Source: a virus. Taken from it: a stretch of 25,968 nucleotides of DNA. Under the pieces are notes generated by a model. It worked only from the letters and a program-made list of their open reading frames with translations, did no database searches and was not told where the DNA came from. Location: IMG/VR virus record IMGVR_UViG_3300042864_000424, positions 1 through 25,968 of that record; one strand, 5' to 3'. The translations under genes and the position numbers were made by a program. This document shows, piece by piece, positions 3,865 through 25,968 of this stretch (position 1 is its first letter; every line of letters starts with the position of its first letter).

Positions 3865-3866
3865 AT

Positions 3867-10422: not shown

Positions 10423-10423
10423 A

Positions 10424-10972: not shown

Positions 10973-10982
10973 TCATTATTGA

Positions 10983-11966
10983 TTAGTAGCCTAAGCTGAT
11001 TAATGATGGGTGAATATAATTTACGCCCATTTTGAAGCGTGCCTTGATATACACCTTTTCGTCCTTCTGGTCATACCAAAGTTCCAAAGCCGTTTCAGGA
11101 CTTAACACGTCCGTTGCAAGTACCTTGTTTTGAGGCGTGGTATATTCAACATAATGCGGCTTAGTTGTTCCTAAACTTGTTGCAATGTCATCCCAACGGA
11201 ATTGAGGAATCACGGTTACGCCACGGAAAGTAAATTGTTCAACGCCGTTAATCAACTGAAGTAAACCGTAGTCGCCGCCACCGCCGTTTTCAATGTCCTC
11301 ACGAAGCTGAGAATAAACACTTTGCGTCACATTGAACACCTTTTGGTTAGCAGGTAAACCTTTCAACTGCAATGGTGCCTGGTCATACACCGCGCGAAGG
11401 ATCGCGAAGCCGTCACCAGCGCCAAGGTCTGAACCTGATCCCGTGTTGCAACGTGGAACTAAGTCACTTGCAACTAACTGAGGGTAATACACCGTCCAAA
11501 ATCCGTCTAATGAATCAAAGTTTGGGTTATTGCTTGACTGGTCACCGAAGTAAGAAAGACGGGTAATGTCGTTTCTTATCGCCTGTTGTGTACGGGTCAA
11601 AAGAATGTTTTCAATTAATGTTCCCGAAACATCTGGCAGCCTTGTACCTGTTTTCAATAACTCCTCAAAAACTGTGTCTTCAAATTCGTCCCAACACATT
11701 TCAAGATCCACTTTCATTTTTTCAACGTCGATGGTACGCTGATAAATGTCAACCGAACCCACGGGGTTAAATCCGCAGCCTGAGTATTTGCGTACAATGT
11801 TTTCCAACTGTTGTACGAAAACCATTTTCTTTTTATTGGCGACGTTACCAAGAACGCGAAATTGTCCGCGAAGGTCATCGTCAAAAAAGACTGGTTCTAA
11901 AAAAATGTTATTTGCCTCCGTACCTCTAAAGGATACGTCAAGTTGGCTTATTTCAACTAATGCCAT
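10983..11966 (-). CDS. Major capsid protein (HK97-like)
   Basis: A 327-residue protein that forms the capsid shell. It begins MALVEISQLDVSFRGTEAN and has a long helix-rich spine region (about residues 85-140, including LIENILLTRTQQAIRNDITRLSYFGD), a loop-rich centre, GLPANQKVFNVTQSVYSQLRED near 203-224, and the typical end with ETALELWYDQKDEKVYIKARFKMGVNYIHPSLI (key part KARFKMGVNYIHP, about 308-320). It follows the protease-scaffold and decoration genes in that order, as usual. Identification rests on the overall motif pattern and position. Confidence 0.8.
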   Translation of the reverse strand: MALVEISQLDVSFRGTEANNIFLEPVFFDDDLRGQFRVLGNVANKKKMVFVQQLENIVRKYSGCGFNPVGSVDIYQRTIDVEKMKVDLEMCWDEFEDTVFEELLKTGTRLPDVSGTLIENILLTRTQQAIRNDITRLSYFGDQSSNNPNFDSLDGFWTVYYPQLVASDLVPRCNTGSGSDLGAGDGFAILRAVYDQAPLQLKGLPANQKVFNVTQSVYSQLREDIENGGGGDYGLLQLINGVEQFTFRGVTVIPQFRWDDIATSLGTTKPHYVEYTTPQNKVLATDVLSPETALELWYDQKDEKVYIKARFKMGVNYIHPSLISLGY

Positions 11967-11978
11967 TTTGTTTTAATT

Positions 11979-12443
11979 TTAAAGATTTGGGTAAGAAATG
12001 GTTGCAGACGTATTTGTTAAAACAAAAGCATCCTCAATACCAAATGAAAACTCTGTTTTTGCACCTGCGGTTGTTGCCACTGCAAACAAAACCTTCCAAT
12101 CATTACTTGCGTTTAACGCCGAGGTATTGATTTGTAAAATTGCCGTTGGTGCTGAGGACTGCCAATTTGCATAAGCCTCGTTACCTGATTCATCCATTAC
12201 GGTAACCTTATAAAAATCACTTGCACTTGTTACACCTGTCAACGGTGCAAAGTTCAAACGCTTTCCAGCCGAGGAAGTACCATAGGTGAAGGAAACGGGA
12301 ATTCGATCCGTAAAGGTATCAATACCGTATAATTGCTCCGCGTTTATCCCTTGCTCGTTGGCATACGGGTTGGTGCGGTTTAAATTGTTTTGCCCGACGT
12401 ATGTATTTGAATCGAGAAAACCATTAACGTTTGCTGTTGCCAT
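11979..12443 (-). CDS. Probable head decoration protein (154 aa)
   Basis: A 154-residue protein with an N-terminal Asn/Gly/Tyr-rich region (GFLDSNTYVGQNNLNRTNPYANEQG shortened: YVGQNNLNRTNPYANE) and a beta-rich C-terminal part (KRLNFAPLTGV, FYKVTVMDESGNEAYANW, DWKVLFAVATTAG). It starts within the protease-scaffold stop as TAATG and precedes the capsid gene by 12 bases, the slot where lambda gpD-type decoration proteins sit. Decoration is an inference from position and size; no signature motif is seen. Confidence 0.55.
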   Translation of the reverse strand: MATANVNGFLDSNTYVGQNNLNRTNPYANEQGINAEQLYGIDTFTDRIPVSFTYGTSSAGKRLNFAPLTGVTSASDFYKVTVMDESGNEAYANWQSSAPTAILQINTSALNASNDWKVLFAVATTAGAKTEFSFGIEDAFVLTNTSATISYPNL

Positions 12444-12847
12444 TATCTTTGTGAGATTTTAGATTGAACTAATGAAGCGAAAGAATCAAAGTAACTCGAT
12501 TTCGTTATTGTTTCCTGAACCTTTTCGTGGGCTGAGCCGCCGGAAGGAAGTCCAACGCCTTTTTTTACTTGCGCCCTGAGTGCAACCAATTCGTTGCCCA
12601 ATGTTTCAAGAACCGTTTCAATTTCGGTTATTGACGTACTTTGCTCGTTTGATTTTTCAGATAAAGCGGTCATTTCTTCGGCATTTAAAACCGTGTAACC
12701 TTTTGCCTTTAAAACCTCAATAGCCATTTCATCTGTTATAACTACCTCGTCCGCTTTTGAATCAACTGCCGCTGGTGCGTCAATAACCTCATTGGTTTCG
12801 GTTTGGTTTAACAAAGATTTGATTTTTTCTAAAATGGAATTACCCAT
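12443..12847 (-). CDS. Possible nested scaffold protein (internal start, 134 aa)
   Basis: Within the protease gene, Met205 (ATG 12847) lies exactly at the protease/scaffold boundary and is preceded by an A-rich run (AAAAAACAAAAATAACGATG), the type of leader Bacteroidota ribosomes favour. Initiation here would yield a free scaffold MGNSILEKIKSLL..., as in the nested C/Nu3 arrangement of lambda. This is a prediction from leader and position, not a separate frame. Confidence 0.4.
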   Translation of the reverse strand: MGNSILEKIKSLLNQTETNEVIDAPAAVDSKADEVVITDEMAIEVLKAKGYTVLNAEEMTALSEKSNEQSTSITEIETVLETLGNELVALRAQVKKGVGLPSGGSAHEKVQETITKSSYFDSFASLVQSKISQR

Positions 12848-13459
12848 GTCATCGTTATTTTTGTTTTTTATTAATAATGCGGCTGGAACATTTACGAACT
12901 TGCTTAAACTGTTTTGCAACGGTAATAAATCTATATTTTTTTCGTCCGTTTTAACAATTTCATCAATGAAACCGAATTCTAAAGCTTCCTGTGATGTCAT
13001 CCATGTTTCGGCTGCCATCATTTTTTTAATCTTTTTTCTAAGGTCTTTTTCTTCCCCTTTGCGTTTGTAAACAGCTGACAAATAAATGTCAAGTAACTTT
13101 TCTTCCATCTTGTCTAACAAATCAGCCGTTGCCTCAAGTTCGTCGGAATTACCGAAAGCTTGTGACCAAGGTCGATGAATCATTAAAAATGAATTTTCGG
13201 TCATTTTCACTTTGTCAGCCGCCAACAGTACAACCGTTGCAATGCTTGCTACCAAGCCGATTCCTGTTGCCGTGGTTTCGTTTGAATAAGTAGAAATTAA
13301 ATCAGCCATTCCCATTCCTTCGGTAACTGAGCCGCCACCTGATGAAATAGTAAAATCTATTGACGCTCCATTTGCCTCATCTATTTTGTATTTTAGATAA
13401 GGCATTGAATTGTACCACTCTGAAATTTCCCCTATAATATCAACTTTAACATTTGCCAT
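12443..13459 (-). CDS. ClpP-type head maturation protease fused to scaffold
   Basis: A 338-residue two-part protein. Residues 1-170 form a ClpP/S14-like protease: a strand pattern TISSGGGSVTEGMGMADLI, nucleophile Ser72 in GLVASIATVV, His95 in FLMIHRPW, and the ETWMTSQEALEFGFIDEI tail (about 151-169) where the third active-site residue normally lies. Residues 205-338 look like a scaffold: acidic and helical, with coiled-coil-like IETVLETLGNELVALRAQV and a Ser-rich end. It would guide capsid assembly and then process it. The stop overlaps the decoration start (TAATG). Fold and role are well supported. Confidence 0.86.
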   Translation of the reverse strand: MANVKVDIIGEISEWYNSMPYLKYKIDEANGASIDFTISSGGGSVTEGMGMADLISTYSNETTATGIGLVASIATVVLLAADKVKMTENSFLMIHRPWSQAFGNSDELEATADLLDKMEEKLLDIYLSAVYKRKGEEKDLRKKIKKMMAAETWMTSQEALEFGFIDEIVKTDEKNIDLLPLQNSLSKFVNVPAALLIKNKNNDDMGNSILEKIKSLLNQTETNEVIDAPAAVDSKADEVVITDEMAIEVLKAKGYTVLNAEEMTALSEKSNEQSTSITEIETVLETLGNELVALRAQVKKGVGLPSGGSAHEKVQETITKSSYFDSFASLVQSKISQR

Positions 13460-13488
13460 TTTTGTAGATTAATGTGTAAATTTATTTA

Positions 13489-13833
13489 TTATAATTTTTT
13501 ATCTTTTCTTTTTTGCTTGATTTGATAACCAAACCTTTCAGGGTGCTGAACCATGTTATAAACGTGCTTCTTTGAAATACCCGTGCGTATGCTTATTTCC
13601 ATCATGGCATCCATCTTTGAATCATTTGAATAAAGGCTATTTGGATAAAGGTGCATGACCATGTATTTCGCCACCGTCTTTTCCTTTACCACGTCGGTTT
13701 TTACGAGGAAGGAAATCAAGTGAAAAAAACTGGGTGTAATACCTTCCTTATGACAAAAAGCACTGTATTTATTCAAGATTTCATGGGTAAAATCCTGCAA
13801 TAAATCCTCATTAATCATTTCAAATTCATCCAT
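13489..13833 (-). CDS. HTH-like small protein upstream of the protease gene (114 aa)
   Basis: A 114-residue, largely helical protein beginning MDEFEMINEDLLQDF. Residues about 76-97 (AMMEISIRTGISKKHVYNMVQ) have the spacing of a helix-turn-helix with a glycine at the turn, and the last 12 residues are strongly basic (KQKRKDKKL). A DNA-binding role is plausible but not proven, and a winged-helix type structural use is possible. It starts eight bases inside the end of the CPAC gene; the protease begins 29 bases after its stop. A candidate regulator inside a structural operon is unusual. Confidence 0.55.
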   Translation of the reverse strand: MDEFEMINEDLLQDFTHEILNKYSAFCHKEGITPSFFHLISFLVKTDVVKEKTVAKYMVMHLYPNSLYSNDSKMDAMMEISIRTGISKKHVYNMVQHPERFGYQIKQKRKDKKL

Positions 13834-14089
13834 TTTCGTTCCAATATTGTACTATCTGCCTCATTTTACCGACTACTTTTGTCCGACACGCGGGACAATT
13901 TCGCCGCTCAGGCTCATAATGATTAACAAAGTTGTTATAAATATTGAACAAATAATCCATATCGTTCGGGTCAATGCTTAAAACCCTGTAAGTCCTATTA
14001 ACCGTGGCGGTAACTTGCGCCTTGTATTCCTCGGGGATGCGAGAACCAAGTTCTCCCCAAATGCTATCTGTCTTCATACAATTACACAT
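13826..14089 (-). CDS. Small CPAC-motif protein after the tape measure gene (87 aa)
   Basis: An 87-residue protein that begins directly after the tape-measure stop (TAA then ATG at 14089). It carries a CPAC motif (Cys65, Cys68) in the segment ERRNCPACRTKVV, and two more cysteines at the extreme N-terminus (MCNCM) if ATG 14089 is used; the four could form a zinc site. A start at the in-frame ATG 14077 would lose the N-terminal pair. The middle is helical and aromatic (DYLFNIYNNFVNHY). No known family; role unknown. Confidence 0.6.
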   Translation of the reverse strand: MCNCMKTDSIWGELGSRIPEEYKAQVTATVNRTYRVLSIDPNDMDYLFNIYNNFVNHYEPERRNCPACRTKVVGKMRQIVQYWNENG

Positions 14090-17000
14090 TTATAAAGTGG
14101 CGTTTATTTTTAACTTGTTTCCCTCAGCAAGATCGCGCGCAATATCCTCACTCACAACGTACGCCTGCAACCTGTCTATCCTGTTGTTTATCGCGTCGGT
14201 CTTTGCCTCCATGACTTGTAAGAATTCATTCATGTTCCCCTGTAAACCCAAGCCTTGTATTGGTGGGTTAATAGGTGGAACCATACCACCCTCTGCGAAA
14301 CCTTTGATACCAAGTTTCCTGAATGTGGGAGAACCGCCTAATAAACTTTGTTGGCGTTGGTTCAATACAACCTCACCGCGTTTAACGTATGCAAGTACAT
14401 TGTCACCGTTTGACCGTGTTGGTATGTTTTGCTTTTGATTTACCCGTTGCCCTGTGACAACGCCGCCCTCGGCAAGTGGCTGGGCTGCAATGGTTGCAAT
14501 CTGAGCGCCAGATGCAATGCCAACGGCGGCGGCGTTTATAAAATTAATCGGAGGGGCTGAACTTGCTAAAGCTCTTTGAATAGCTAAAGCACCTTGAATG
14601 ATTGCTTGAATAATGGCAATGCGTTTTTCTTCTTTTGCGGCTTTGATTCTTATTGCTTCGGCTTCGGCTTGTTGTTGTTTTAATAATTCCTTTTGGGAGG
14701 CAATATCCCTTTCAATCCTTTTCTTTCTTATTCCCGATGCCTTTTCCGCTTTTGCCTCAAGTTCTTCAATATTATTTTCAGTTGTTTCAATTTGATTATT
14801 AATAGCATCGACTGCCTTTTGGTTTGCAATACTTTGTATAGTTCCAATAAAATTTATTAATTCATTGACACCATTTGCAATAGAATCTGTTAATTTTTCT
14901 CTATCCTCTTTTTCTTTATCCTCTTTATCTTTTTTATATTTATCCTGAATATCTTTAATCTCCTGTTCTGTCTTGTCGGTCAAAAGTTTTCTTAACCTTG
15001 CTTTTTCAGTTTCAGAAGCAAAAATTAAATCTAATTCTTTATTTAAATTATCAAGGTCATCTTGTGCTTTTTGCTTTGCAGCTGCAATTTCTCTTTCTTC
15101 ATCATTTTTAATTCCCTCAATTTGTAACTTATTAATTTTATCGTAAAATGTTTTTTCAGCCGAAACCCTTTTATCATTAATATCTTTTTCCTGCTTTTCA
15201 ATACCCTCTTTGCTTTTTATATAATTTGCCTCAGCCGCACGGCGTTCAACCAGTAAGTTTTCCATTTGCTTTGACCCTGCTTCTTCAAGTGCAATCAACG
15301 CATCAATCCTTTGTATTTCGCTGTTGTAATCATTGTCTAAGACGGTGCGCCGTCTGTTAATGTTTTCTATTTCATCTTCCGTGGTATCTTGTTTTGAGCG
15401 TGCAAGATTGACGATGGATTGAGCGACTTTAAAGTTTTGGTTTATTTCCTCAATGGCATCTTGCTTTTTCTTTTCCGCATTTAGCCCAAGTATTTCATTT
15501 TGTGTTTCAACCGCCGTTTTTATCTGCGCGTTGACCTCATTTAATTTAATGGCTATTTTCTTTTGAGCATCTGAGCCAACCACGGCGTTTGAAAACGCGC
15601 TTTGTAATTTGCTTCTTTCGTCCTCAAGGGCTGCAAGGGAACCTTCGGTAAATGATTTAGCTACATCCTTGCCTCCTTTGTTTGCGGCTTCACTTAACTC
15701 TTTGTTTTGGGCTTTTAATCTTTTCTTTTGTTCTTCGGCGTTTTGCTTTTCAAGTGCAATCCGATCCTTTTCAGCTTTCTCAATAGCTAACTTATCCTCC
15801 TTATCTATCTTTTGTTTTTCGGCTCTAAATACATCTCGATTTGCTTTTAATGCACCGCTGATGCTTCCTGTTGTAAAAAAGGTTGTTAAACCTGCCCCCA
15901 TGGCTTTTAAGGTTGCAGGAAACTCATTTGCAAAATCAAGTAAACCGCCTAATAAGTTGTTAAAAAATATCTTTGCTTTGGAGGATATAATTGTAAATTC
16001 CCCGCCAAACTTTGTGAATGATTCATTTAATTCCGATTGACTTGCTTCTAAATCTAAGTTTGTTTGATAAAGAATTTCCTGTTGTGTTTGATATTGGTTT
16101 GTTGACTTTGTTACATCGTCGGTATTTTTTAAAATCTTTTCCAACGAAAGAATATACGCCAACCCAGCATCTTCACCAGCCGAACCGAAAACGTCTGCAA
16201 TAACCGTTTGTAATTTGTCGCCCGCAACCTCGGTATCACCCATTTTACCGCTAACCAATGATAAGGCTTCGGCGGTTGTAATTGAGCCGTTGTTTAAATT
16301 CTCAAATAATTCACCTGTAAATTCTTCGCCAAATGCACCCACTAAAGCATCTTTTGAAGTCTTTGTTTGCTCCCTAATTCTTAATCCAAATTCCTTTACA
16401 ACATCCAAGCCTTTATCTGAATAAATACCCTGATTTGCCGCCTCGATTGAAATGGCTAAATAATCTTTAATACTTAATCCAGCCGCCGCAAATTGCGCTG
16501 GATATTCTTTTAGGTTATCTAAGAACTCCCCATTACTATCCGCTCCCTTTCTAAATCCTGCCTCAATCGCGTCTAATGCCTCATTAAAACCAATGCCTAA
16601 TGATTTACTTGCCGCGTTGGCTGCAACGGTTATGTCGTTTACATCTTTTTTATATGTTGTTGATATTGCTTTTGACTTGCTTACAAAGTCGGTTAAAACG
16701 TTTCCCGTCGCACCCGTAAACGCTGCCACCTGATTAGAAAGTTCTTTTGTTTCGGCAACCGATTCATTTATACTTTGAAATATTTCAGATATGCCACTAA
16801 ATAGGGTTAATGCTATTCCAATGGCGCCAAGCGATTTATTAAATGCTCCTGTGGTTTGAGTTAATCCATTTATTCCCTGAGATAAACCGCCTATTGTACC
16901 CGTCACTTGTCCCAATGTTCCCCCAAGTTTTGGAAAGAATTGCCCCAATGCCTCAGTATAACCGCCGACGTTTCTTTGGAATTGCCCAACCGTGGCATCA

Positions 17001-17392
17001 ATGCCTTTTAGCTTTTTATCAAGGTTATTGATACTTACCAATAAATCTTTTGCCTCCTGACTTGATTCCTGCTCAGCCGCCGCCAAGTCCTTGTATCGGT
17101 TGCGCTGATCATTCAACTCCTTGCTTAACTTGCGATAAGCTCCATTGGCTTTGTCGGTTGCGGTTATTTCTTCGTTGCGGCTTTTGATTTGCTCCTTAAC
17201 AACTTTGTTGACTTCCATTTGCGCTGCCTTCAAGTCAACCAACTTTGTTTCAAGTTTCTTGATTTCTTGAACGTCCGTTGTTTTCTTTAGCTCCGCGTTA
17301 ACGTCGGCAATGGCTCTTTTCAACTCCGTTGCCGTTTCAACCGTTTTTCCAAGCCCGTCTATTTGTATTTGAAAACCTATTACTTGTGCCAT
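14090..17392 (-). CDS. Tail tape measure protein (1100 aa)
   Basis: Sets tail length and is ejected with the DNA. The N-terminal about 130 residues are coiled-coil (ELKRAIADVNAELKK, LETKLVDLKAAQ). A hydrophobic stretch lies near 190-210 (GAIGIALTLFSGISEIF), and more hydrophobic helices occur around 465-510. A very long Lys/Glu-rich coiled coil follows (about 540-900). The C-terminus has the tape-measure signature FAEGG (about 1030) with GDNVLAYVKRGEVVLNQRQQ. It starts in a TAATG overlap with the 811-aa gene. Its length would suggest a tail of about 160 nm at roughly 0.15 nm per residue. Very confident. Confidence 0.93.
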   Translation of the reverse strand: MAQVIGFQIQIDGLGKTVETATELKRAIADVNAELKKTTDVQEIKKLETKLVDLKAAQMEVNKVVKEQIKSRNEEITATDKANGAYRKLSKELNDQRNRYKDLAAAEQESSQEAKDLLVSINNLDKKLKGIDATVGQFQRNVGGYTEALGQFFPKLGGTLGQVTGTIGGLSQGINGLTQTTGAFNKSLGAIGIALTLFSGISEIFQSINESVAETKELSNQVAAFTGATGNVLTDFVSKSKAISTTYKKDVNDITVAANAASKSLGIGFNEALDAIEAGFRKGADSNGEFLDNLKEYPAQFAAAGLSIKDYLAISIEAANQGIYSDKGLDVVKEFGLRIREQTKTSKDALVGAFGEEFTGELFENLNNGSITTAEALSLVSGKMGDTEVAGDKLQTVIADVFGSAGEDAGLAYILSLEKILKNTDDVTKSTNQYQTQQEILYQTNLDLEASQSELNESFTKFGGEFTIISSKAKIFFNNLLGGLLDFANEFPATLKAMGAGLTTFFTTGSISGALKANRDVFRAEKQKIDKEDKLAIEKAEKDRIALEKQNAEEQKKRLKAQNKELSEAANKGGKDVAKSFTEGSLAALEDERSKLQSAFSNAVVGSDAQKKIAIKLNEVNAQIKTAVETQNEILGLNAEKKKQDAIEEINQNFKVAQSIVNLARSKQDTTEDEIENINRRRTVLDNDYNSEIQRIDALIALEEAGSKQMENLLVERRAAEANYIKSKEGIEKQEKDINDKRVSAEKTFYDKINKLQIEGIKNDEEREIAAAKQKAQDDLDNLNKELDLIFASETEKARLRKLLTDKTEQEIKDIQDKYKKDKEDKEKEDREKLTDSIANGVNELINFIGTIQSIANQKAVDAINNQIETTENNIEELEAKAEKASGIRKKRIERDIASQKELLKQQQAEAEAIRIKAAKEEKRIAIIQAIIQGALAIQRALASSAPPINFINAAAVGIASGAQIATIAAQPLAEGGVVTGQRVNQKQNIPTRSNGDNVLAYVKRGEVVLNQRQQSLLGGSPTFRKLGIKGFAEGGMVPPINPPIQGLGLQGNMNEFLQVMEAKTDAINNRIDRLQAYVVSEDIARDLAEGNKLKINATL

Positions 17393-19827
17393 TATCCTTT
17401 TGTTACTCCGTTTACAATAACTTCATAATTTGCCCCATCGTAATGGGTATCAATGTTTATTCCAATGGTTGAACCACCAATAATATATTGAATCGTTGGT
17501 ATCAACTTTTGCCCGTTCTGGAATACAAGTACATTTGCATTCGTGTTACTTACCTGCGTTATGCCTGAGTTAACCGGTAATACAAGTACGTTTGTCATCG
17601 AGTTAAGGAACGGCGTATAAGATAACTGAATGTTTACCGTTGCCCCATTTGCTCCAACCAAGCCGCTTCCCGATCCTGTCACCGTGCCACCCTGAGGCGG
17701 TGCGCCTGCCAAAGTAATCGTATTTGAAACCTTGTTAAGGTCATTTACATTTGGCTTTTCGTCGTATAAGATAACCGTTCTTGCTGGACTATTGGATTTG
17801 GGATTGTATTCAAGTTCTTGAATGATGAAATTAGAACTTCCAATCATTCCCTTTCGTCTGAATGACAGTTGCGTTATGTCCTTGTTTTCCCATTTGACAA
17901 AGGTCGTATATTGCTTTCCAAGTTCAATGCGTTTATATGTTTGAAGATGGAAGGTTTTAAAAACGCCTTGCATCACATTTGTATAATTTGTGACTTCGTC
18001 GGAAAAAGAAAGGTTAAAATCACCGCCGCTCGGGTCATTGTAATTTACCATGAAAGCCGCAGGAAAATCAAAAGCCGAAGCCGCTGAACTTGCTTCATCG
18101 TACAAACGAACATATCCGTCTAAGCCGCTTCGCCTGCCTGCGTAATAAAGCAAACGAGGTGCCAAGTTATAATTGGGCTCAGCATCGGGAACGGTATTGT
18201 AATCGTCACCGAAAACAAGTGGCATCTGAGCCCCGTATGTTCCACCCGTGGTAATTGTAACGTCGTTTATATGAATGGCTTTTGCAAAGAAATTTGTATA
18301 TAAAAATTCAATGCCATTTGGGAATCTATCCTGGGGGAAATTATAACCCCCTGAATAAATGTTAACTCCGCGCCTTGCTTCCTCTTTGTTCGTCGTGTCA
18401 TCGTCCGTGGCATACGCCAGTACCTGACTTGATTTGTAATTATCTAAAATTGTCAATTCGCTTCCATCAATGTCACGGGTATTTAAGTCATACTTATTCG
18501 TATCCTTAAAAAAGCCGTCAAAAGTTGTAAGGGTAATCGCTCCGCTTGCGTTTGCCCTGTATCTTACCGTATAATTGTCCTTTGGGTATGCATACACTTG
18601 TTTACTTAGTACGTCGGTCTCCCATGCAAGATTGAAAATGGTTGTAAGGTCCACAATTATATCTTTGACATACCATGAATTAGGAATGATGTATTCCAAA
18701 TTTACCGTCTCTCCTTGCTCTAATCCTTCCTTTTGTGCCACCACGGACAAAGAACCATCAATAGTAAGACTAAAGGTTACGTTCTCATACCTCAGCCGCA
18801 TTTTAACCAAGTCACCTGCCACCAAGTCTCCCAGAAATTCAAGGGCAATAGAATCATTTAAAGATGTTTCATTGGTTAAATCATACGTTGAAACGTTGTT
18901 TCCGTTGACCTCAAAGAAAAGAATCAGTTCTGCGAATTGGTTTAAGTCACCAATGGAAGCCGTTAAGGTAACATTTAACTCAGCTATCAACTCGTATAAA
19001 GCATTAATCGGGACCGTGTAAACGCCACCTGAGTAATTGCCTCCTGTGTCAAAGTTGGGTGACGTTGTTTCATTTGTGAATGCAATGTCAACCGTCCCGT
19101 AATCACCTGAGGAATAAACAAAGGATGAAGGCGAAGGATTGGAAGCTCGAAGATTTACGAAGTCTGCAATGTAATCAGCATCAAGATTAAGTCCCATAGG
19201 AATAATCAAGCGGCTGAAAGGATCGGTTTTAAAAATACTGTTTAATTGGTATCCCTTATTTTGAAAAGCCTTTTCCAAGATTTGCCAAATGAAAATTGCG
19301 GGCGTCAACTCATTGTCAACAATGTACGTTTCGTTTTCCCACGCTTTCCATTTCATCAAGATGAAACAATGTTCCGAAGTCAATGGATTATAATTGGTTT
19401 TTACCGTCGCCGTGGATACGGTTATGTCTTGCCAACCCAATGACCTGACTAAGATATTACCCACGTCGGCGAACCAATCCGCATTGTTTCCAATCAATGC
19501 GACTTTGTAATTATTCGCCTTGAATCCGTGGTTCATGGCGTTTAATTCCCCTGAATCCAACCGTGCTTTTCCCGTGAGTATTGGAACGCCATTTGCCTCA
19601 AGCCGTGCAGGAAGTAACTTGTAAGCATTGGTGACAATGACATTTGGCGTCTCAATGTTTTCAAAGATTTCAATGTTTGTCTTTGTTCCGGGTAATGTTA
19701 CATTCCTTTTAGAATGCGCGCCCGATATGTTTCCAAGTTCAATATTTTCAATAGAGTAATCAATGGTTACATTGACATCCTTTTGGTTTAAATCGACTTC
19801 TTGATTATTTATAAATAGTTTTATCAT
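17392..19827 (-). CDS. Large distal tail / tail-hub protein (811 aa)
   Basis: An 811-residue protein upstream of the tape measure gene. The N-terminus (VDLNQKDVNVTIDYSIENIE, then GAHSKRNVTLPGTKTNIEIFEN, about 36-57) matches a pattern common in Bacteroidota phage tail proteins: a small beta domain with a SKR...LPGTK...IF motif. A long beta-rich middle holds no enzymatic motif that I can identify. The C-terminal about 110 residues (GGTVTGSGSGLVGANG and later repeats) look like a glycine-rich beta module. I infer a hub or Tal-like protein that contacts host surface; the name is by position and pattern. Overlaps neighbours by ATGA (upstream) and TAATG (downstream). Confidence 0.65.
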   Translation of the reverse strand: MIKLFINNQEVDLNQKDVNVTIDYSIENIELGNISGAHSKRNVTLPGTKTNIEIFENIETPNVIVTNAYKLLPARLEANGVPILTGKARLDSGELNAMNHGFKANNYKVALIGNNADWFADVGNILVRSLGWQDITVSTATVKTNYNPLTSEHCFILMKWKAWENETYIVDNELTPAIFIWQILEKAFQNKGYQLNSIFKTDPFSRLIIPMGLNLDADYIADFVNLRASNPSPSSFVYSSGDYGTVDIAFTNETTSPNFDTGGNYSGGVYTVPINALYELIAELNVTLTASIGDLNQFAELILFFEVNGNNVSTYDLTNETSLNDSIALEFLGDLVAGDLVKMRLRYENVTFSLTIDGSLSVVAQKEGLEQGETVNLEYIIPNSWYVKDIIVDLTTIFNLAWETDVLSKQVYAYPKDNYTVRYRANASGAITLTTFDGFFKDTNKYDLNTRDIDGSELTILDNYKSSQVLAYATDDDTTNKEEARRGVNIYSGGYNFPQDRFPNGIEFLYTNFFAKAIHINDVTITTGGTYGAQMPLVFGDDYNTVPDAEPNYNLAPRLLYYAGRRSGLDGYVRLYDEASSAASAFDFPAAFMVNYNDPSGGDFNLSFSDEVTNYTNVMQGVFKTFHLQTYKRIELGKQYTTFVKWENKDITQLSFRRKGMIGSSNFIIQELEYNPKSNSPARTVILYDEKPNVNDLNKVSNTITLAGAPPQGGTVTGSGSGLVGANGATVNIQLSYTPFLNSMTNVLVLPVNSGITQVSNTNANVLVFQNGQKLIPTIQYIIGGSTIGINIDTHYDGANYEVIVNGVTKG

Positions 19828-21026
19828 AGCTGAGCGACTGGCGTATTTTGGTAAATGATTTCAAAGGAAACACCAATATCCGTCGCCCTGTTGTTATCCT
19901 TGTTTATCTCACCGTTGGCAATGGTAACGTTAACATATTTGCCATTCTCAATGATGTACACCTCAGGGGAGTTAAACATTGTGGCAATGTACAAAGCATC
20001 CTCATGACTTACCGCCACCGTGACCGTCTTACTTTTGTTTGACCTTTGATTAACCTTGATAACATTTTTATCAAACGTGTTAGCCTTTGGACTTGCGGCA
20101 ATGTTCCACCGTTGCGCAAGGTTAATCGTATCTGCGTTGCTCGTTTGCTTATCAATCATTAAGCCTGTAAACTGGTAACTTTCCGCGCCACCATGTTTTC
20201 CGAACCAATGAAGCTCAATGTTATCGTTGCAATTTGGGTAAATGTAAATGCGTTGCCTTTCGCTTAGGCGCGTGTATGCCCCGTCATAAGAGCCAACGGA
20301 CACGTCGTAATAATCGTATAAATCTGGATTGGTTGGAAAATTGCCAGCGTGAAATATGGCAGTGTTTCCAAATATATTTGATACACCAACGGACAATGAA
20401 TATAAATCATTGTTTGCCGTGGAGTTTAAATTGTCAACAATGGTGACGGCTGAAGAACCAGACTTTAAATAAAACTCAAATTGAGCTGCGTTTGTTCCAC
20501 GTCCGAGGTAACTTAAAAATATGTTACCTGAGGAATTGCATTTAATAAAATCATTCCTTTGTGTTAAGAATAAGAAAGGATTTGCTGAGGGTTGGTAAAA
20601 ATCCCCCATGTCATATTCCCCATCGACAAACAAGGAAGGTAAAACGTATGCCGTGGTGCTGCTTTGCGAAGCCGTGGAGGTAACGACAAAACCCGATGAA
20701 TTAACCGTTTGATTAAACGCCGTGCAATACAAAGATGAAATAACGTCGGTATTATTTGTAAGGCTGAACCCATAAAGGTTTCCGAAGAAACTTGTTTTGG
20801 CGTTTGTCTTTGGTGCAAGCTGAGTAATCAAGAACGATTGGACATTTGTGTCAAACACTGCCGACGTTCCACTTGTCCCCGTTTGCGCTGCCAAGAAAGA
20901 ACCTTCCAATGTTTCATCAAGGTAAACATTGATTTGTTGCTGAATAACTCCCGACGGTTCAATGGAGCGAAACGCCACGGGGTAAAGGCTGCTTGAAATT
21001 GTATCGGGGTTTATCGTGTAACTCAT
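19824..21026 (-). CDS. Tail structural protein, possible distal-tail component (400 aa)
   Basis: A 400-residue beta-rich protein. Stretches such as NNDLYSLSVGVSNIFG and NDNIELHWFGKHGGAESYQFTG (key part ELHWFGKHGGAESYQF, about 272-287), and the end with VAVSHEDALYIATMFNSPEVYI, resemble Bacteroidota phage tail proteins. It sits between a gp10-like gene and the 811-aa hub-like gene, the expected region for a Dit-type protein. It overlaps both by ATGA. A tail-surface role is inferred; no catalytic motif is seen. Confidence 0.58.
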   Translation of the reverse strand: MSYTINPDTISSSLYPVAFRSIEPSGVIQQQINVYLDETLEGSFLAAQTGTSGTSAVFDTNVQSFLITQLAPKTNAKTSFFGNLYGFSLTNNTDVISSLYCTAFNQTVNSSGFVVTSTASQSSTTAYVLPSLFVDGEYDMGDFYQPSANPFLFLTQRNDFIKCNSSGNIFLSYLGRGTNAAQFEFYLKSGSSAVTIVDNLNSTANNDLYSLSVGVSNIFGNTAIFHAGNFPTNPDLYDYYDVSVGSYDGAYTRLSERQRIYIYPNCNDNIELHWFGKHGGAESYQFTGLMIDKQTSNADTINLAQRWNIAASPKANTFDKNVIKVNQRSNKSKTVTVAVSHEDALYIATMFNSPEVYIIENGKYVNVTIANGEINKDNNRATDIGVSFEIIYQNTPVAQL

Positions 21027-21550
21027 CTGTTTAAAATTGATTTGTAAAATGTTTCAACCGTGGTTTCAATGCTATATGTAATCGCCCTGTTTATCAACTC
21101 AGCCATTTCAGCCTCTTTCTTTTCCAACGCCTGTTCAATAAAGCCCGTGCGCTTTCCTGTTTGTGAATGCTTTTGACTTTTAATCGTTGGCATTCCTTCT
21201 TTTTTATGTTTACTTGCAATGGCGAAGGCTATTGATTTAGCTTCTTTATCGGAAGCGCCAAACCTTTGTTTAGCATATTTCATTAAGCCTTTAATGTATT
21301 CGCTTTCCTTCCGTCCGCTTCCTGGGTAATACGGAATCTTTGTTGCAAGTACCCCTTTGTTATTTATTGCCATGTAATCAGGAACAAAGCCCTCAATGAT
21401 TAATTCATTTGTTTGGAATCGTATTACCGTTTCCATATTCTTTATGGCTGCCCCTGTCAAGTTATGCCCTTGCGATTTCCATTCATTCGCCACGGCGTCA
21501 ATCGCCATTTGCGCAATGTTATCCGCCAACTTTTGCAATTCTTTCTCCAT
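21023..21550 (-). CDS. Tail completion protein, HK97 gp10-like (175 aa)
   Basis: A 175-residue protein with an amphipathic N-terminal helix, DAVANEWKSQGHNLTGAA near residues 18-35, then a short beta segment (IRFQTNELIIEGFVPDYM) and a basic middle (KHKKEGMPTIKSQKHSQTGKR). The C-terminal helix (GFIEQALEKKEAEMAELINRA) fits the gp10/Mu gpG-like tail-terminator pattern, where NLTG and GFIEQAL motifs recur. It starts just five bases beyond the terminator at 21555-21579, and its stop overlaps the 400-aa gene by ATGA. Family call is moderate. Confidence 0.65.
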   Translation of the reverse strand: MEKELQKLADNIAQMAIDAVANEWKSQGHNLTGAAIKNMETVIRFQTNELIIEGFVPDYMAINNKGVLATKIPYYPGSGRKESEYIKGLMKYAKQRFGASDKEAKSIAFAIASKHKKEGMPTIKSQKHSQTGKRTGFIEQALEKKEAEMAELINRAITYSIETTVETFYKSILNR

Positions 21551-21554
21551 AATG

Positions 21555-21579
21555 AAAAAGGTAACCCCGAAGGGCTACC
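21555..21579 (-). terminator. Intrinsic terminator with UUCG tetraloop inside the late operon
   Basis: In minus-strand RNA, GGUAGCCC (21579-21572) pairs with GGGUUACC (21567-21560), one G-U pair, around UUCG (21571-21568), followed by five U. The stable cUUCGg-type loop and U-run make a clear intrinsic terminator. It lies between the 129-aa fibre-like gene (ends 21586) and the tail completion gene (starts 21550). Confidence 0.8.
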
Positions 21580-21585
21580 GTGTTT

Positions 21586-21975
21586 TTATGCCACTGTCAA
21601 AGCCAATGCACTCGCGTTAAATTTCACCTCATCCCCCGTTGCAATGGTCTTACTTGCCGTCAACGCGCCTGCAAATAACATATTTCCACCCGTGATGGTA
21701 TCAAACACTGCCACGTGCGTAGCCGTTGCGCCCGATGCTGCACTTGATGTAATCGTAATCGCTGCCGTGTTCGTCAATGTCCCTGCGCCACCTGTTCCCC
21801 GTGTCCATCCACCTGCTGCAACGGCTATGCGTGTGTACAAAGCACCTGTGGCAGAGCCTGCATCAGTTGGGTCTTGTGAATACAATTGGACAAAGGTAGA
21901 CGTGGGAGCGGAAGCGAAGGTTGAGCCGTTTATCCACCCTGTGATTTGGTCTTCTAAATAATTTGAAAATGCCAT
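21586..21975 (-). CDS. Small beta-rich tail protein (129 aa)
   Basis: A 129-residue Ala/Thr/Gly-rich protein. The N-terminus SNYLEDQITGWINGSTF and the following TFVQLYSQDPTDAGSATGALYTR match a phage family usually annotated as small tail-fibre or tail-associated protein, in which YLEN...GLY..DP..AG recurs. The middle contains GATATHVAVFDTITGGNMLFAGAL, the typical HFGIFDA.TGGNLLF-type strand. It is followed by the UUCG terminator, so this gene may mark an expression step. Function in host contact is inferred from the family. Confidence 0.65.
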   Translation of the reverse strand: MAFSNYLEDQITGWINGSTFASAPTSTFVQLYSQDPTDAGSATGALYTRIAVAAGGWTRGTGGAGTLTNTAAITITSSAASGATATHVAVFDTITGGNMLFAGALTASKTIATGDEVKFNASALALTVA

Positions 21976-21994
21976 GATATTTATTTTTTGTTTA

Positions 21995-22234
21995 TTAATT
22001 TAATTCTGGGTAAATCACTGTAAATTCAATTGGTTCGCCCAAAACAGGAAGCAAGGTTTCATCGTAAATAATGTACCAAAATTGAGGGTCGTTTAATTCT
22101 GCAAATTGGTAATCTACCCAATTTTGAGTTACATCATTTGGATTCAAAGGAATGCCATAGTATTCATTGCATTGCAACTTTGCCTCAATGGCTTGGTTCT
22201 CCGTTGTATATTTGTAGCCTTTAATAGATTGCAT
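21995..22234 (-). CDS. Small fibre-associated protein (79 aa)
   Basis: A 79-residue acidic, aromatic protein beginning MQSIKGYKYTTENQAIEA, with PNDVTQNWVDYQFAE and a GEPIEFTVIYPELN end. Small proteins of this kind often follow fibre genes in Bacteroidota phages, where they might assist folding or assembly. The start overlaps the end of the chimeric tail gene by 14 bases, supporting coupled expression. The pairing is from experience of the family; no biochemical role is known to me. Confidence 0.6.
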   Translation of the reverse strand: MQSIKGYKYTTENQAIEAKLQCNEYYGIPLNPNDVTQNWVDYQFAELNDPQFWYIIYDETLLPVLGEPIEFTVIYPELN

Positions 22235-24011
22235 AATATGTGTTTATATTTGTTTCTATTCCTGTTCGATTTGTGGATTGGTAGCTATCCCATATAATTG
22301 CTTCGTTGGTTCTTATATCACTACCGCTTGCATTATTAAGCATAATTGAGTTAACTTGTGAATTAGTAGTTGGTGATATGGTTAATGATGTGTTTTGAGC
22401 ATTTAAAGCACCGTTACGATAGTGCTGTTGTTGTACAGAACCTTGAATGTATGCTCCTAAGAGAAAATAAGCATTATTGGCGGTAGCGTTTACTCCAATT
22501 GAATTACTTGATGCTCCACTACCAACATTACTTTTTATTATATTGCTATTATTAAATTGTCCAATTAAACCATTTACTAAAGTATCTGCACCACCAGCCA
22601 GAGCTCCTAAGTATACTTTATAACTTGCTATGGCATTTGTCACATTATATAAAGTAATTAAATAAGTCCTATTTGCAGATAAAGAGAATGATGGAGTATT
22701 TAAAACCTGAGCGCTTGATGTGAATCTCATAATCGGTCTACCGCCTTGGGTTAGTAATGTTCCGCTTACTACTATTTGCGGCTGATTTGCCGCGGTTGAT
22801 TGTGTTGCGTTATTTGCATTCCCACTTTGGTCATACCACGTTGTTACAAAGCCATTACCAACTCCACAAAAGGTTGTTAATGCTGATTCATCCAAATTAC
22901 CACTTACAAAACCAATATCTTGTTCTGTGTTATCACTTGACCTCCTAACCCTTATTGCACTTCCTGCATAAGCCGTGCGCAATTTACGCAAAGAATAAGC
23001 CGCTCCTGCATTTGGATATAAATCAAGTAAAAATGAAGCAGATGAAGTCACCGTCAAATTCGCTGCCGTTGTCCCTGCCCCTGTCAAAGATGCACTTGCT
23101 AACTTTGATACTAAGGCACTTGCAGCAAGGGAGTTAGATGAAGTGAGTGAGGATGCTAAGTTCTTTGCAATGGTTGCATTGGATACCAATGTGCCATTTG
23201 CATTTAAAGATGATTCAAAAGTCTTTGCAATTTTCAAGTCACTTACCAATGTTCCATTTGCGTTTAATAAAGATTCAAAAGTCTTTGCTATTTTTAAATC
23301 ACTATTCAATAAACTTGATGCCATTATACTTGATTCCATTGTCTTTGCAAGTTGCAAATTGGAAATCAAGGAAGAGGAAGTGTCTAAACTTGATGCAACT
23401 TTTTGAACGAAGGAAATGTCAGCCGTCACCGTTGCCCTGCCTTCCAAGCTTGCGGCAAATTTCAACACCGTGGTCAATGATGCGGTTAAGTTGCTCGATG
23501 TTACAATGTTGGCAATGCACTGAACCAATGCGATAACGCCTGGCTCACAGTTGGTCGGTACAACCAAGTTGAAGCTAAGTTGCACGGTAATCATTCTTTG
23601 AAGCCCCGTAAAGGAATCAAAGGTAATCGACGGCGCTTCGGGAATAAAAAGGTAATTGGGTAAAATGCTTTGTTTTATCTTGTTCAACCTTTGTACAAAG
23701 TAATTTGCATATTGTTGAAGATTTGCCCATTTGTCAATTTGTAACGTCGGGTCTTCGTCGCCTTCATTATCATATCCAAGTAAATCGTCAAAGAACAAGG
23801 TCACTTGATACGTGTCTTGTTTCCTTGTTTGGTCTGAGCCTGTTATCGTTGGCACGGCAAAGAAGACGCGCGGGAACTCGTTCAACTCCTGAAAGTCCTC
23901 AGTGTTTCCTTGTCGAACACGGTCGGAAGCCCAACCGAAATTGTAGCTTTTTATCGCCGTTATATTATCCGCGGTATCCTTGAAAATGTCGCTTATTTCC
24001 CTAATATTCAT
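22221..24011 (-). CDS. Chimeric tail protein: completion-like N-terminus, 20-residue repeats, arabinofuranosidase-like C-terminus (596 aa)
   Basis: Three parts are visible. Residues 1-155 (IREISDIFKDTADNITAIKSY, FFAVPTITGSD, QVTLFFDDLLG, MITVQLSFNLVVPTNCEPGV) look like a conserved tail protein. Residues 176-316 are seven near-perfect repeats of about 20 residues, unit form SDLKIAKTFESSLNANGTLV. Residues 326-430 (AYSLRKLRTAYAGSAIRVRR, NLDESALTTFCGVGNGFVTTWYDQSGNANNATQ; key part TTWYDQSGNANNATQ) match the arabinofuranosidase-B-like domain (ArabFuran-catal) seen in phage tail proteins; the rest (431-596) is a beta-rich tail. It would bind, and perhaps trim, host surface glycan. Catalysis is uncertain. 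Starts in ATGA overlap with the frameshift extension. Confidence 0.72.
   Translation of the reverse strand: MNIREISDIFKDTADNITAIKSYNFGWASDRVRQGNTEDFQELNEFPRVFFAVPTITGSDQTRKQDTYQVTLFFDDLLGYDNEGDEDPTLQIDKWANLQQYANYFVQRLNKIKQSILPNYLFIPEAPSITFDSFTGLQRMITVQLSFNLVVPTNCEPGVIALVQCIANIVTSSNLTASLTTVLKFAASLEGRATVTADISFVQKVASSLDTSSSLISNLQLAKTMESSIMASSLLNSDLKIAKTFESLLNANGTLVSDLKIAKTFESSLNANGTLVSNATIAKNLASSLTSSNSLAASALVSKLASASLTGAGTTAANLTVTSSASFLLDLYPNAGAAYSLRKLRTAYAGSAIRVRRSSDNTEQDIGFVSGNLDESALTTFCGVGNGFVTTWYDQSGNANNATQSTAANQPQIVVSGTLLTQGGRPIMRFTSSAQVLNTPSFSLSANRTYLITLYNVTNAIASYKVYLGALAGGADTLVNGLIGQFNNSNIIKSNVGSGASSNSIGVNATANNAYFLLGAYIQGSVQQQHYRNGALNAQNTSLTISPTTNSQVNSIMLNNASGSDIRTNEAIIWDSYQSTNRTGIETNINTYYAIY
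23064..23486 (-). repeat. 60-bp tandem repeats encoding about 20-residue units
   Basis: Seven adjacent units encode residues 176-316 of the chimeric tail protein. The period is 20 codons except one of 21. Nucleotide identity is highest between the two units around 23161-23340, where motifs such as GATTCAAAAGTCTTTGC recur exactly 60 bp apart. Others are conserved only at protein level. Confidence 0.85.
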
Positions 24012-25086
24012 TTTTTACTTTGCTTTTGTATTTCATGATACAAGTTATCCTCAGCCGCTTTGGACGCAAGGTATTGAAATACCTCGTACAAATTTGCCCT
24101 TTCGCTTGATTGTAAGGGCGTCAACCCTGCCAAGTTAAACAAGCCGCACTCAGCTATTTTTTTAATCGTCAAGTACCAACCGTATTTGTCATTCAATTGT
24201 CTTGAAGCGCTGGCATACTTTCCATCGCCTTTTTGAGCATAGAGGTCTGCAAATCTACTTGATAACTCTCGCTTAACTTCGTCAAAAAAAAACCAATTTC
24301 AAAGCCAACTTGTAAAGGCAATTTTAAAAAGTCAAGACAATTCCTTTGAAAAACCTCGTCGCTATATGCCTCGTCCTTCTTCCTGAGCAACACGGCTATA
24401 ACATGAAGCAAGCCCTGTGCGTCATTGTTTTCAATCGCCTTGCGCCCCTTGTCAAATTGGGCTGCTTCCGCGAATTCAAGTAACGTGGACTTTGCCATTA
24501 GCTTATCAGGAAGATAATACAAAGTGCCATTGAAGTCGTAAATCTGTTTATACTTAAGTTCTTCGGGAACGCTAATCGCATTGAGTATCTTTGAAAACAT
24601 GAAGGTTAAATATTTCAGCTCCAGACTTTCCGCAACTTTGCCATAACAAGCATCTAAAGGAATGCCCGTGAAATAGTTTACCACCTTTGCCATGTACGGG
24701 TATTTTACCTGAGCCTCCCAGACTTCGTCCATGATTTCAAAACACTTGTCTAATGCCTTTTGATTTACGTTGAATTGGTCAATCAATGCTGGAAGGAAAC
24801 GGCGCACATTGTCTTTGACATTATCTGTCAAAAGGATTATTTCACATTCTTGAACCACGTCCGCCCACAACTTATTCAAGTCAATGCCAATTTTCTTTGC
24901 ATACGGTTTAATTTTTTCATACGCCGCGTTCATTTGCTTTTGTGCAACAAGGGCATCAAGTTCAACCTCGGGGTATTGAGGTAGGATAAATTTATGGAAG
25001 TAAACGTATTGTTCCAATGTTATATCAGCTGCGGTCTCAGGATAAAAATACTTTGTATCGGAGTGGCTTAAATGAAATTGTACCAT
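24008..25086 (-). CDS. Probable -1 frameshift product (gpGT-like, 359 aa)
   Basis: After residue 267 the -1 frame is open with no stop from the nine-T run to 24008: FDEVKRELSSRFADLYAQKG, then a continuation KYASASRQLNDKYGWYLTIKK to EIQKQSKK. One slip on U UUU UUU joins it to the 297-aa frame, giving 359 residues, matching the gpG/gpGT pair typical of siphophage tail chaperones. Read as a separate gene, the last 62 residues would need a TTG start at 24196 and would lose the conserved-looking lead-in to KYGWY. A sequencing indel in the homopolymer is the alternative. Confidence 0.62.
24193..25086 (-). CDS. Tail assembly chaperone-like protein, unshifted product (297 aa)
   Basis: A 297-residue helical protein beginning MVQFHLSHSDTKYFYPETAADITLEQYVYFHKFIL (key part ITLEQYVYFHKFIL, about 22-35). 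Pattern and position resemble gpG-type tail chaperones, which coat the tape measure before the tube polymerises. The zero-frame C-terminus after the slippery run is 30 residues (LTKLSESYQ to LQDN). The start overlaps the previous gene as TAATG. Size is larger than many gpG proteins, and the family match itself is weak; the frameshift arrangement is the main support. Confidence 0.6.
   Translation of the reverse strand: MVQFHLSHSDTKYFYPETAADITLEQYVYFHKFILPQYPEVELDALVAQKQMNAAYEKIKPYAKKIGIDLNKLWADVVQECEIILLTDNVKDNVRRFLPALIDQFNVNQKALDKCFEIMDEVWEAQVKYPYMAKVVNYFTGIPLDACYGKVAESLELKYLTFMFSKILNAISVPEELKYKQIYDFNGTLYYLPDKLMAKSTLLEFAEAAQFDKGRKAIENNDAQGLLHVIAVLLRKKDEAYSDEVFQRNCLDFLKLPLQVGFEIGFFLTKLSESYQVDLQTSMLKKAMESMPALQDN
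24284..24292 (-). other. Slippery T9 run for -1 ribosomal frameshift
   Basis: Nine consecutive T in the minus-strand coding sequence, in frame GGT TTT TTT TTG. Positions 24292-24286 give the heptamer U UUU UUU, which allows tRNA-Phe in both sites to re-pair after a -1 slip. No strong downstream stem-loop was found by eye. Confidence 0.65.
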
Positions 25087-25385
25087 TATTTTCGCTTGCT
25101 TTTTCTTATTGGTTCTGGAATATTATCTGCGATGCTTGCGCTCGGCTCAATGTTCTTTTGATTTTCATTAACCTTTGGGGTTAATACTTTTTCATGGCTC
25201 ACCAATGGCAATGATTCAGGTCTTTTTAATTCCCTGTACCTTCCTGTGCCAGTCAAACGAACCGCCTTTTCCAAGTGAGAACGAAGCAAAAGAAGTTGTT
25301 TCCTTTTCATTGGGTGTTCCTGTATCTCTTTGGTTATTTCCTCAATCAAGTGAATGATGTAAACCGCCTTTTCGTTGTTTGTCAT
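25086..25385 (-). CDS. Hypothetical helical protein (99 aa)
   Basis: ATG 25385 is chosen: it makes an ATGA junction with the upstream gene and starts MTNNEKAVYIIHLIEEI, close to the MTxxEKAxxL start of its neighbours. The longer in-frame start at 25469 overlaps the 80-aa gene by 88 bases. The protein is helical and basic in the middle (EHPMKRKQLLLLRSHLEKAVRL) and ends in a Lys/Arg-rich tail (PEPIRKSKRK). It may be a divergent member of the tandem paralog set, with a lengthened C-terminus. The next gene overlaps its stop as TAATG. Confidence 0.6.
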   Translation of the reverse strand: MTNNEKAVYIIHLIEEITKEIQEHPMKRKQLLLLRSHLEKAVRLTGTGRYRELKRPESLPLVSHEKVLTPKVNENQKNIEPSASIADNIPEPIRKSKRK

Positions 25386-25624
25386 TTCGTTATGATATTT
25401 TTTAAATGCAATTCCACTTCGCACCAGTACGCCGTGTTTTCGTCCACGTCTGAGCCAAGTTGTCCGCAAATCGTTTGATTGTTACTTATGATTATGTCGG
25501 TCAAAAGCAAAGCTATTTTCTTTGCCTCAAGCCAACTGTCGTATTCACCCGTTACCACGTGTCGATAAGGCAATGTGTCGTAAATTATCAAATGCAATTC
25601 CCTTGCTTTTTCCTGAGCCGTCAT
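25382..25624 (-). CDS. Small helical paralog, copy 3 (80 aa)
   Basis: An 80-residue protein beginning MTAQEKARELHLIIYDTL and ending NTAYWCEVELHLKNIITK. Both ends match the next gene upstream (MTPKEKADEL and EYYWWEEVEHEIENI). Middle: EAKKIALLLTDIIIS aligns with KQSALYAVREVLK. Function unknown. It joins both neighbours by ATGA. Confidence 0.7.
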   Translation of the reverse strand: MTAQEKARELHLIIYDTLPYRHVVTGEYDSWLEAKKIALLLTDIIISNNQTICGQLGSDVDENTAYWCEVELHLKNIITK

Positions 25625-25848
25625 ATATTTTCTATTTCGTGTTCAACTTCTTCCCACCAATAATATTCAGCTTCGCTGCCAGGTACCATAATTCTCCACT
25701 TTTGTTTCAAGACCTCCCGTACCGCATACAAGGCGCTTTGCTTTGCAAGGATGGAGACAAGGATCTCTTGCCCAAGTTCGCCTCCGATGCTTTGAATAAG
25801 GTTGTGATAATGGGTAAATAATTCGTCTGCTTTTTCTTTCGGGGTCAT
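25621..25848 (-). CDS. Small helical paralog, copy 2 (75 aa)
   Basis: A 75-residue protein beginning MTPKEKADELFTHYHNLIQ and ending EYYWWEEVEHEIENI. It shares these ends and the central ALYAVREVLK-type segment with the copies on either side, so the set arose by tandem duplication. No membrane segment or catalytic motif; probably a small soluble helical protein. Function unknown. Confidence 0.7.
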   Translation of the reverse strand: MTPKEKADELFTHYHNLIQSIGGELGQEILVSILAKQSALYAVREVLKQKWRIMVPGSEAEYYWWEEVEHEIENI

Positions 25849-25968
25849 AATTTTTCAAGTTCTTGTTTAACTTCTTTCCAATAATTAATGGAAGGGGATG
25901 TGTCATGTGTAGCCGTTAAAAGATAATGGATTTTTATTAACTCATCCACGGCAACCAAGGCGCATTTT
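25845..25968 (-). CDS. Small helical paralog, copy 1 (partial)
   Basis: The end of a gene entering from the right edge on the minus strand. The last 40 residues are visible: KCALVAVDELIKIHYLL, a spacer, then INYWKEVKQELEKL and a TGA at 25845-25847. The segments CALVAVDELIK and NYWKEVKQELEKL align with ALYAVREVLK and YWWEEVEHEIENI of the next gene. Its stop overlaps that gene's start as ATGA. Confidence 0.65.
   Translation of the reverse strand, partial: KCALVAVDELIKIHYLLTATHDTSPSINYWKEVKQELEKL

Follow-up and report, generated by a model that had tools for sequence, protein, structure and literature searches.

A conserved RNA hairpin between two virion genes of an uncultured phage: a possible decay barrier at a module seam of the late operon

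In phages with one long late transcript, hundreds of capsid subunits are made against few tail parts, mostly by way of promoters, terminators and translation. Two described systems come closest to the element reported here. In Escherichia coli, according to one study, stable hairpins without a uridine tract bound operon segments that decay differentially (PMC5927463), and in phage T7 another places the leaky terminator T-phi behind capsid gene 10 (PMC5592923). The window analysed here, one entire virus record of 25,968 bases that is probably a fragment, has its structural genes on the minus strand (Table 1), and a hairpin between two virion genes of this uncultured phage is real. We read it best as an mRNA hairpin that lies between two cistrons where modules meet and that probably acts as a barrier to decay and, in the focal copy, perhaps as a leaky terminator as well.

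Table 1. Positions in the window of the focal hairpin, its neighbours and the hairpins used for comparison
Feature	Position	Strand	Basis
596-aa virion gene, head of cassette	22221-24011	-	N-terminal part 45% identical to the L085 151-aa protein
79-aa cassette gene, no family (Pfam, PHROG)	21995-22234	-	
Upstream gene gp80, 129 aa, Gp80 family	21586-21975	-	Pfam PF23140, E 1e-28; PHROG 240 'head protein', E 1.3e-17
Hairpin GGTAGCCC-TTCG-GGGTTACC, 8 bp, UUCG tetraloop	21560-21579	-	Sequence, fold, identity among GGTA-class sequences
T-run TTTTT behind the stem	21555-21559	-	Sequence; interrupted or shifted in several relatives of the GGTA class
Downstream gene, 175 aa, no family found (Pfam, PHROG)	21023-21550	-	
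Second hairpin of the late operon, lacking a U-tract, behind the 97-aa gene (4613-4906) and before the amidase gene (3867-4529)	4545-4572	-	Covariation in relatives
Reference terminator-like hairpin with T8 run, after 1569-2189	2203-2232	+	
Reference terminator-like hairpin with T6 run, convergent gene ends, after 3518-3802	3836-3866	+	

Read 5' to 3' on the minus strand, the junction is TAA-AAACAC-GGTAGCCC-TTCG-GGGTTACC-TTTTT-CATT-ATG, with the stem beginning 6 nt past the gp80 stop and the next start at 21550. The stem has eight pairs, five of them G-C, and its TTCG loop is closed by a C-G pair, which gives a stable GC-rich stem-loop as expected of a terminator. An earlier note, made from the letters of the window, had described a UUCG terminator in the middle of the structural operon, and sequence and fold agree with a UUCG hairpin that has a T-rich tail and stands within a same-strand structural operon. 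The distance to the next start, put there at five bases, is 4 bases from the T-run to the ATG and 9 from the stem. That no promoter has room between the two genes is borne out by an intergenic gap of only 35 nt. No TAnnTTTG box was found within 200 nt before the next start, and one sigma-70-like match (9 of 12 positions, 21704-21677) lies inside the gp80 gene.

The focal fold reaches -16.0 kcal/mol over 51 nt (z -2.77), and three of 200 shuffles were equally stable. Among 6,484 minus-strand windows of 32 nt (step 4), 22 fold equally well, three of which are the focal hairpin. Terminator-like patterns show no excess in positions 8000-25968 (22 found, 19.2 expected, sd 4.0), so that the focal hairpin stands above chance because of its position and its conservation in relatives, not by the pattern alone. 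Rfam gave no match at gathering score in the whole window. The host is probably a member of the Bacteroidota, as suggested by A-rich, G-poor leaders, by TAnnTTTG boxes, which we take to be the Bacteroidota promoter consensus, and by DUF6712, presumably linked to the same group. Protein searches bearing on the host gave distant matches or none, and one search of genome contigs found no prophage copies with a named host.

Relatives were collected in scans of viral contigs, with at least 80 loci per scan for gp80 and 28 loci for the 175-aa gene, and open reading frames were called by our own script from ATG starts only (contigs G018 and G019 resemble each other). Among the listed loci, 57 of the 61 distinct 45-nt sequences behind close gp80 relatives fold at -8 kcal/mol or lower, compared with 53 of 587 other distinct gene ends at the same loci. 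These 57 hairpins form three sequence classes, again among the listed loci: GGTA, to which the focal hairpin belongs (14 distinct), CCTGCC-TGAAATAT (23) and TAGG (20). Two of the four sequences without a hairpin have a relative of the 175-aa gene starting 3 nt behind gp80, and the other two stand before a third, unrelated gene. Of the 13 further distinct sequences of the GGTA class, 11 match the focal hairpin at 18-20 of 20 nt, although for 10 of these 11 the gp80 DNA is just 54-66% identical; in the other two the stem persists with altered pairs and a different loop. The stem begins 0-10 nt behind the gp80 stop (55 distinct; median 5 nt in 15 distinct). Seen from the 175-aa gene, 14 of its 28 loci have the hairpin, and in the other 14, where another gene precedes, there is no strong one (-1.3 to -6.5 kcal/mol). 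We found no description of such hairpins in these phages in the literature, which is no proof of their absence from print.

That a hairpin follows every gp80 was rejected. Six of the seven distant gp80 matches in named phages were examined (Roseobacter CRP-4, Methylophilales MEP401, Sporosarcina Lietuvens and three Manatee Spring records), and in five of the six the gap is only 1-15 nt long and leaves no space for a hairpin. In the remaining one, L116 (2879-2922; MW202481, uncultured podovirus), a gap of 44 nt behind gp80 folds at -10.2 kcal/mol.

Elsewhere in the listed gp80 loci, folds of -16 kcal/mol or lower occur in 29 distinct intergenic gaps 20-110 nt long. Ten upstream proteins were tested, eight of them from these gaps; seven match PHROG 10, major head protein, and three PHROG 1407 or 4542, major tail or tail tube protein. 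Two of the 29 gaps belong to other genes, namely the 97-aa gene of the window and L008:6604-6918. When genes were clustered, 13 of the 86 clusters with at least four members had a hairpin in at least half of them, and since the first and second pieces share 501 bases in 17 of the 20 contigs used, a few genes are possibly double in the cluster counts, while the T counts below use distinct sequences. Within the 20 contigs plus the window, seven of the eight members of the capsid cluster carry a hairpin (one capsid junction, L265, was counted as hairpin-less because an ATG lies within its stem), and the 97-aa gene before the amidase gene has one in all 13 members, the window included; the stems of the latter vary, and the loop mostly stays TTGATT-like. 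The hairpin before the amidase gene may regulate lysis. U-poor hairpins with compensatory changes were also seen behind major capsid genes of relatives (L016:1291-1348, L077:1097-1154, L139, L149, L170 and others), and long ones of -21 to -26 kcal/mol behind major tail or tail tube genes (L009:6533-6603, L031:4058-4135, L014 from 6985 onward). Both L014 and L019 have a hairpin behind a tail tube-type gene, the gene match having been tested for L014. The possible virion gene at 10983-11966, with PHROG matches mostly to unknown proteins, has no hairpin behind it in the focal lineage, and a rule that hairpins follow high-copy genes is therefore not shown for the focal phage.

Pairs changed on both sides number 2 of 8 in the GGTA class (9 of the 10 distinct hairpins, one with a longer loop omitted), 3 of 8 in the CCTGCC class, 5 of 10 in the 97-aa hairpin (8 stems, one variant with another tail omitted) and 6 of 11 in the capsid hairpin (7 hairpins of a single loop type, other loop types omitted). 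The covariation score was reached by 10, 1, 0 and 0 of 500 shuffles, respectively, counts that are no probabilities because the sets are small (7-9 rows) and related, and it lay above every slid version in all four sets. Read on the sense strand, five sets contain 35 cells with G.U and one with A.C, which would be G.U on the opposite strand, besides 12 cells with other mismatches (the TAGG class contributed 8 of its 10 hairpins and the 97-aa set 7 of its 8). The stems covary and the wobbles fit sense RNA, so that what is conserved is an RNA hairpin of the sense strand.

Our main reading, to which we give a probability of about 0.4, is that this intercistronic RNA hairpin closes the gp80 frame in the late transcript and acts post-transcriptionally as a decay barrier. 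The long late mRNA would be cut in the AU-rich leader behind the hairpin, and the hairpin would then halt 3'-to-5' exonucleases, so that the upstream segment would be more stable than the downstream one; some polymerases may also stop at the hairpin in the focal lineage, with its U-rich tail. A stable hairpin does lie between co-oriented genes, its structure is conserved as RNA, and three unrelated stem sequences occupy one position, all of which argue for a decay barrier. The frequency of hairpins behind gp80, the low T counts of the non-GGTA hairpins and the short distance from stop to stem (both given below) count for it too, and the E. coli hairpins of PMC5927463 are a precedent. The further feature of such barriers, the lack of a uridine tract, fits the CCTGCC class best and the TAGG class less, and the focal class does not fit. 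Against a decay barrier stand the focal sequence itself, with its T5 and a score of 30.2 that falls within the terminator range (our own rendering of the d'Aubenton-Carafa score for E. coli and its constants), the 4 of 61 gp80 downstream sequences among the listed loci that have no hairpin, and the short gaps in five of the six distant gp80 relatives. An element that purely protects gp80 is further opposed by the tie of the GGTA class to one downstream family and of the other classes to another. For the 97-aa hairpins the distance to the stop is 27-41 nt, so that the hairpin group as a whole does not always stand close to a stop codon.

A leaky intrinsic terminator, at which some polymerases stop in the T-run so that upstream genes are in excess, is a possible alternative and, in the focal lineage, a close second to the decay barrier; T-phi is a precedent (PMC5592923). 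The focal tail and score favour it, as do positive scores in six of the seven scored GGTA-class hairpins (range -12 to 37) and a T content in these seven (T count in the best 8-nt window behind the stem; 5-7 of 8) that equals that of convergent gene ends (median 6 in both). A promoter-like TAnnTTTG box behind the hairpin in 3 of the 61 gp80 downstream sequences among the listed loci also points this way. In L008, L031 and L032 a TATATTTG box, which resembles what we take to be the Bacteroidota promoter consensus, lies about 60 nt behind the gp80 stop and behind the hairpin, which may there divide two transcription units.

Several observations weigh against a terminator. All eight scored hairpins of the CCTGCC and TAGG classes are negative, with 2-5 T of 8, and the focal tract itself (T5CATT, 6 of 8 T) is broken in several close relatives. 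The T-richness before the 175-aa ATG is nearly the same with and without a hairpin (7-8 T in 10 nt at 14 loci vs 6-7 at 14 loci, the loci being not all distinct), and in the 20 contigs plus the window the leader T fraction is 0.262 behind hairpins (87 distinct) and 0.236 elsewhere (98). What appears to be conserved behind gp80 is the hairpin, not the U-run. The stem is also very near the stop codon. In E. coli, according to one study, translation near the stop codon represses terminators, and more than 27 nt is needed for full effect (PMC4824070), compared with 6 nt in the focal copy and a median of 5 nt behind gp80; the host of the phage may not obey this E. coli rule, and nearness to the stop is thus compatible with a terminator.

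Four clusters, 6, 10, 15 and 76, were taken as terminators, one of them convergent and three before gaps of 66-140 nt, and the T-runs behind their stems reach 6-9. Their median T content is 7 of 8 (n = 38 distinct) vs 3 for the gp80, capsid and 97-aa hairpins together (n = 35; Mann-Whitney P 2e-10), a contrast that flatters the decay reading, since the clusters were chosen after their tails had been seen, three being labelled post hoc and only convergent cluster 6 being an operon end on independent grounds, and since gp80 alone has a median of 5. Neither group includes the amidase ends of the late strand, which are the convergent hairpin read from its opposite strand (0-4 T in 12 distinct), or a 152-aa cluster (3-6 T in 8 distinct). 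Against the convergent cluster alone, the three kinds together still differ (median 3 vs 6, P 0.004), the gp80 hairpins show no significant difference (median 5 vs 6, the latter from 9 distinct; P 0.18), and the 8 distinct non-GGTA gp80 hairpins have fewer T (2-5 of 8, P 0.017). Cluster 6 is itself weaker, 3 of its 9 distinct sequences having 3-4 T of 8 and 6 of 13 scoring below 0. Score medians in the terminator clusters are 18-48, and positive scores also occur in 2 of 7 capsid hairpins and in 3 of 12 behind the 97-aa gene, some clear (13.8, 14.0) and others slight (0.6-0.8). From stop to stem the median distance is 5 nt behind gp80 (15 distinct), whereas the four clusters have 24 nt (42 distinct; P 3e-8) and the convergent cluster alone 32 nt (P 7e-6). 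The retest against the convergent cluster alone lowered our probability of a decay barrier from 0.45 to 0.40 and raised that of a terminator by the same small amount. The UUCG terminator of the earlier note is thus supported in part: the focal copy, taken alone, looks like a fair terminator candidate, but as a general explanation a terminator is not supported, the other gp80 classes being U-poor, and the hairpin family as a whole does not look like a set of terminators. Nothing met in passing suggests the antiterminator that the note offered as another possibility.

It is unlikely that the hairpin is a translational insulator, blocking re-initiation after gp80 or keeping an A-rich leader without Shine-Dalgarno sequence unpaired, so that the next gene would be translated independently. 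The spacing from stem to AUG is very even (9-14 nt for 15 distinct gp80 hairpins in the contigs examined, 11-17 nt for capsid and 13-20 nt for 97-aa hairpins), the leaders are A-rich and G-poor, in many of the clusters listed, genes abut or run into the next one (median gap -4 to 12), and the GGTA hairpins track the downstream family, all of which speaks for an insulator. However, the 175-aa gene does without a strong hairpin at the half of its loci where another gene precedes, even in L085, where its start lies inside the preceding reading frame.

Gene order places the hairpin in a second context. In L085 a 151-aa gene directly precedes the 175-aa gene, and the two overlap; in the window, the rest of the 596-aa gene, the 79-aa gene, gp80 and the hairpin lie between the 151-aa relative and the 175-aa gene. 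Across 20 gp80 genes, most come after a long virion gene plus one or two others, and three mutually dissimilar families follow (9, 8 and 2 of the 20; one is cut off). GGTA hairpins precede the 175-aa family only (14 of 14), and CCTGCC and TAGG hairpins the second family (42 of 42, with one more lacking an ORF), in which both classes occur behind gp80s that are 96-98% identical. Because the classes follow the downstream families while near-identical gp80s differ in class, we infer that the hairpin is also the seam between exchanged modules. In L128, L019, L283 and L285, gp80 stands before a 620-aa gene, the start of which presumably encodes a tail sheath protein, with no hairpin behind gp80. 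The 596-aa protein resembles a fusion of a relative of the 151-aa protein with a further C-terminal part; its residues 337-409 match an arabinofuranosidase model (Pfam), its gene contains a 60-bp tandem duplication (87% identical, window 23184-23303), and a 26-nt repeat (88% identical) joins 7574-7599 and 22238-22263.

A seam raises the alternative that the short conserved block is kept mainly as an exchange site for tail modules, which we consider very unlikely. In its favour, four relatives that lack gp80 become closely similar in DNA again from 21557, two bases beyond the stem, gp80s sharing 92-96% identity differ both in hairpin class and in the family that follows, and the near-identical GGTA hairpins sit between diverged flanks. 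The compensatory changes and the sense-strand wobble bias nevertheless demand a role as RNA, and hairpins occur also after capsid genes and before the amidase gene. The target-site hairpin of a diversity-generating retroelement (DGR) is similar in anatomy (a GC-rich stem of 7-10 bp and a 4-nt loop, 4-34 bp behind the variable region; PMC3240598) but is rejected as far as the contigs reach and hardly credible, the loop being TTCG and not the GRNA given there, and reverse transcriptase being found in none of 25 related records, which are fragments, and by Pfam in none of 29 window proteins. A stimulator of stop-codon read-through or frameshifting, considered for a stem 6 nt past the stop, was rejected because the gap lengths (35, 36, 43, 44, 45 nt and others) are not constant modulo 3 and the next gene is therefore in no fixed frame.

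Hairpins kept without a clear U-run need not be a simple transcription stop, and may shape the lifetimes or the separateness of two messages. A wider proposal, which we regard as doubtful, is that U-poor hairpins behind high-copy genes (major capsid, major tail, perhaps gp80) and before the amidase gene set virion protein ratios by segmental mRNA decay, not by promoters and terminators, and that hairpins of new sequence return after tail modules have been swapped. If so, conserved U-poor hairpins would make mRNA decay or translational separation a further level of control, and hairpin-based predictors may overcall terminators in such phages.

Among known systems, the decay-barrier hairpins such as those of malE-malF and puf, surveyed in E. 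coli in PMC5927463, are like the focal one in being stable hairpins between genes of one operon; they often have no uridine tract, their structure is conserved, and the upstream message is thought to outlive the downstream one. The gp80 hairpin differs from the E. coli barriers in standing in a phage late operon of a probable Bacteroidota host, very near the stop and, in the focal copy, with a T5 tail, and it is known from sequence; moreover, 17 of the 26 E. coli hairpins in that survey lie inside the downstream gene, whereas the focal one is intergenic. T-phi is likewise a hairpin in the midst of late genes, beyond which genes would be reached by read-through, but it acts on the phage's own polymerase and is experimentally established (PMC5592923), whereas two of the three gp80 classes have no clear U-tract. 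The DGR hairpin of Bordetella phage BPP-1 is also a short GC-rich hairpin just behind a virion gene, and the focal one differs from it in its loop and in that no reverse transcriptase was found. Nearest at hand are the terminator-like hairpins of the same phages (those at 2203-2232 and 3836-3866 on the plus strand of the window), which share the short GC-rich stem-loop but have T8 and T6 runs and lie farther from the stop, with a median of 24 nt in the four clusters.
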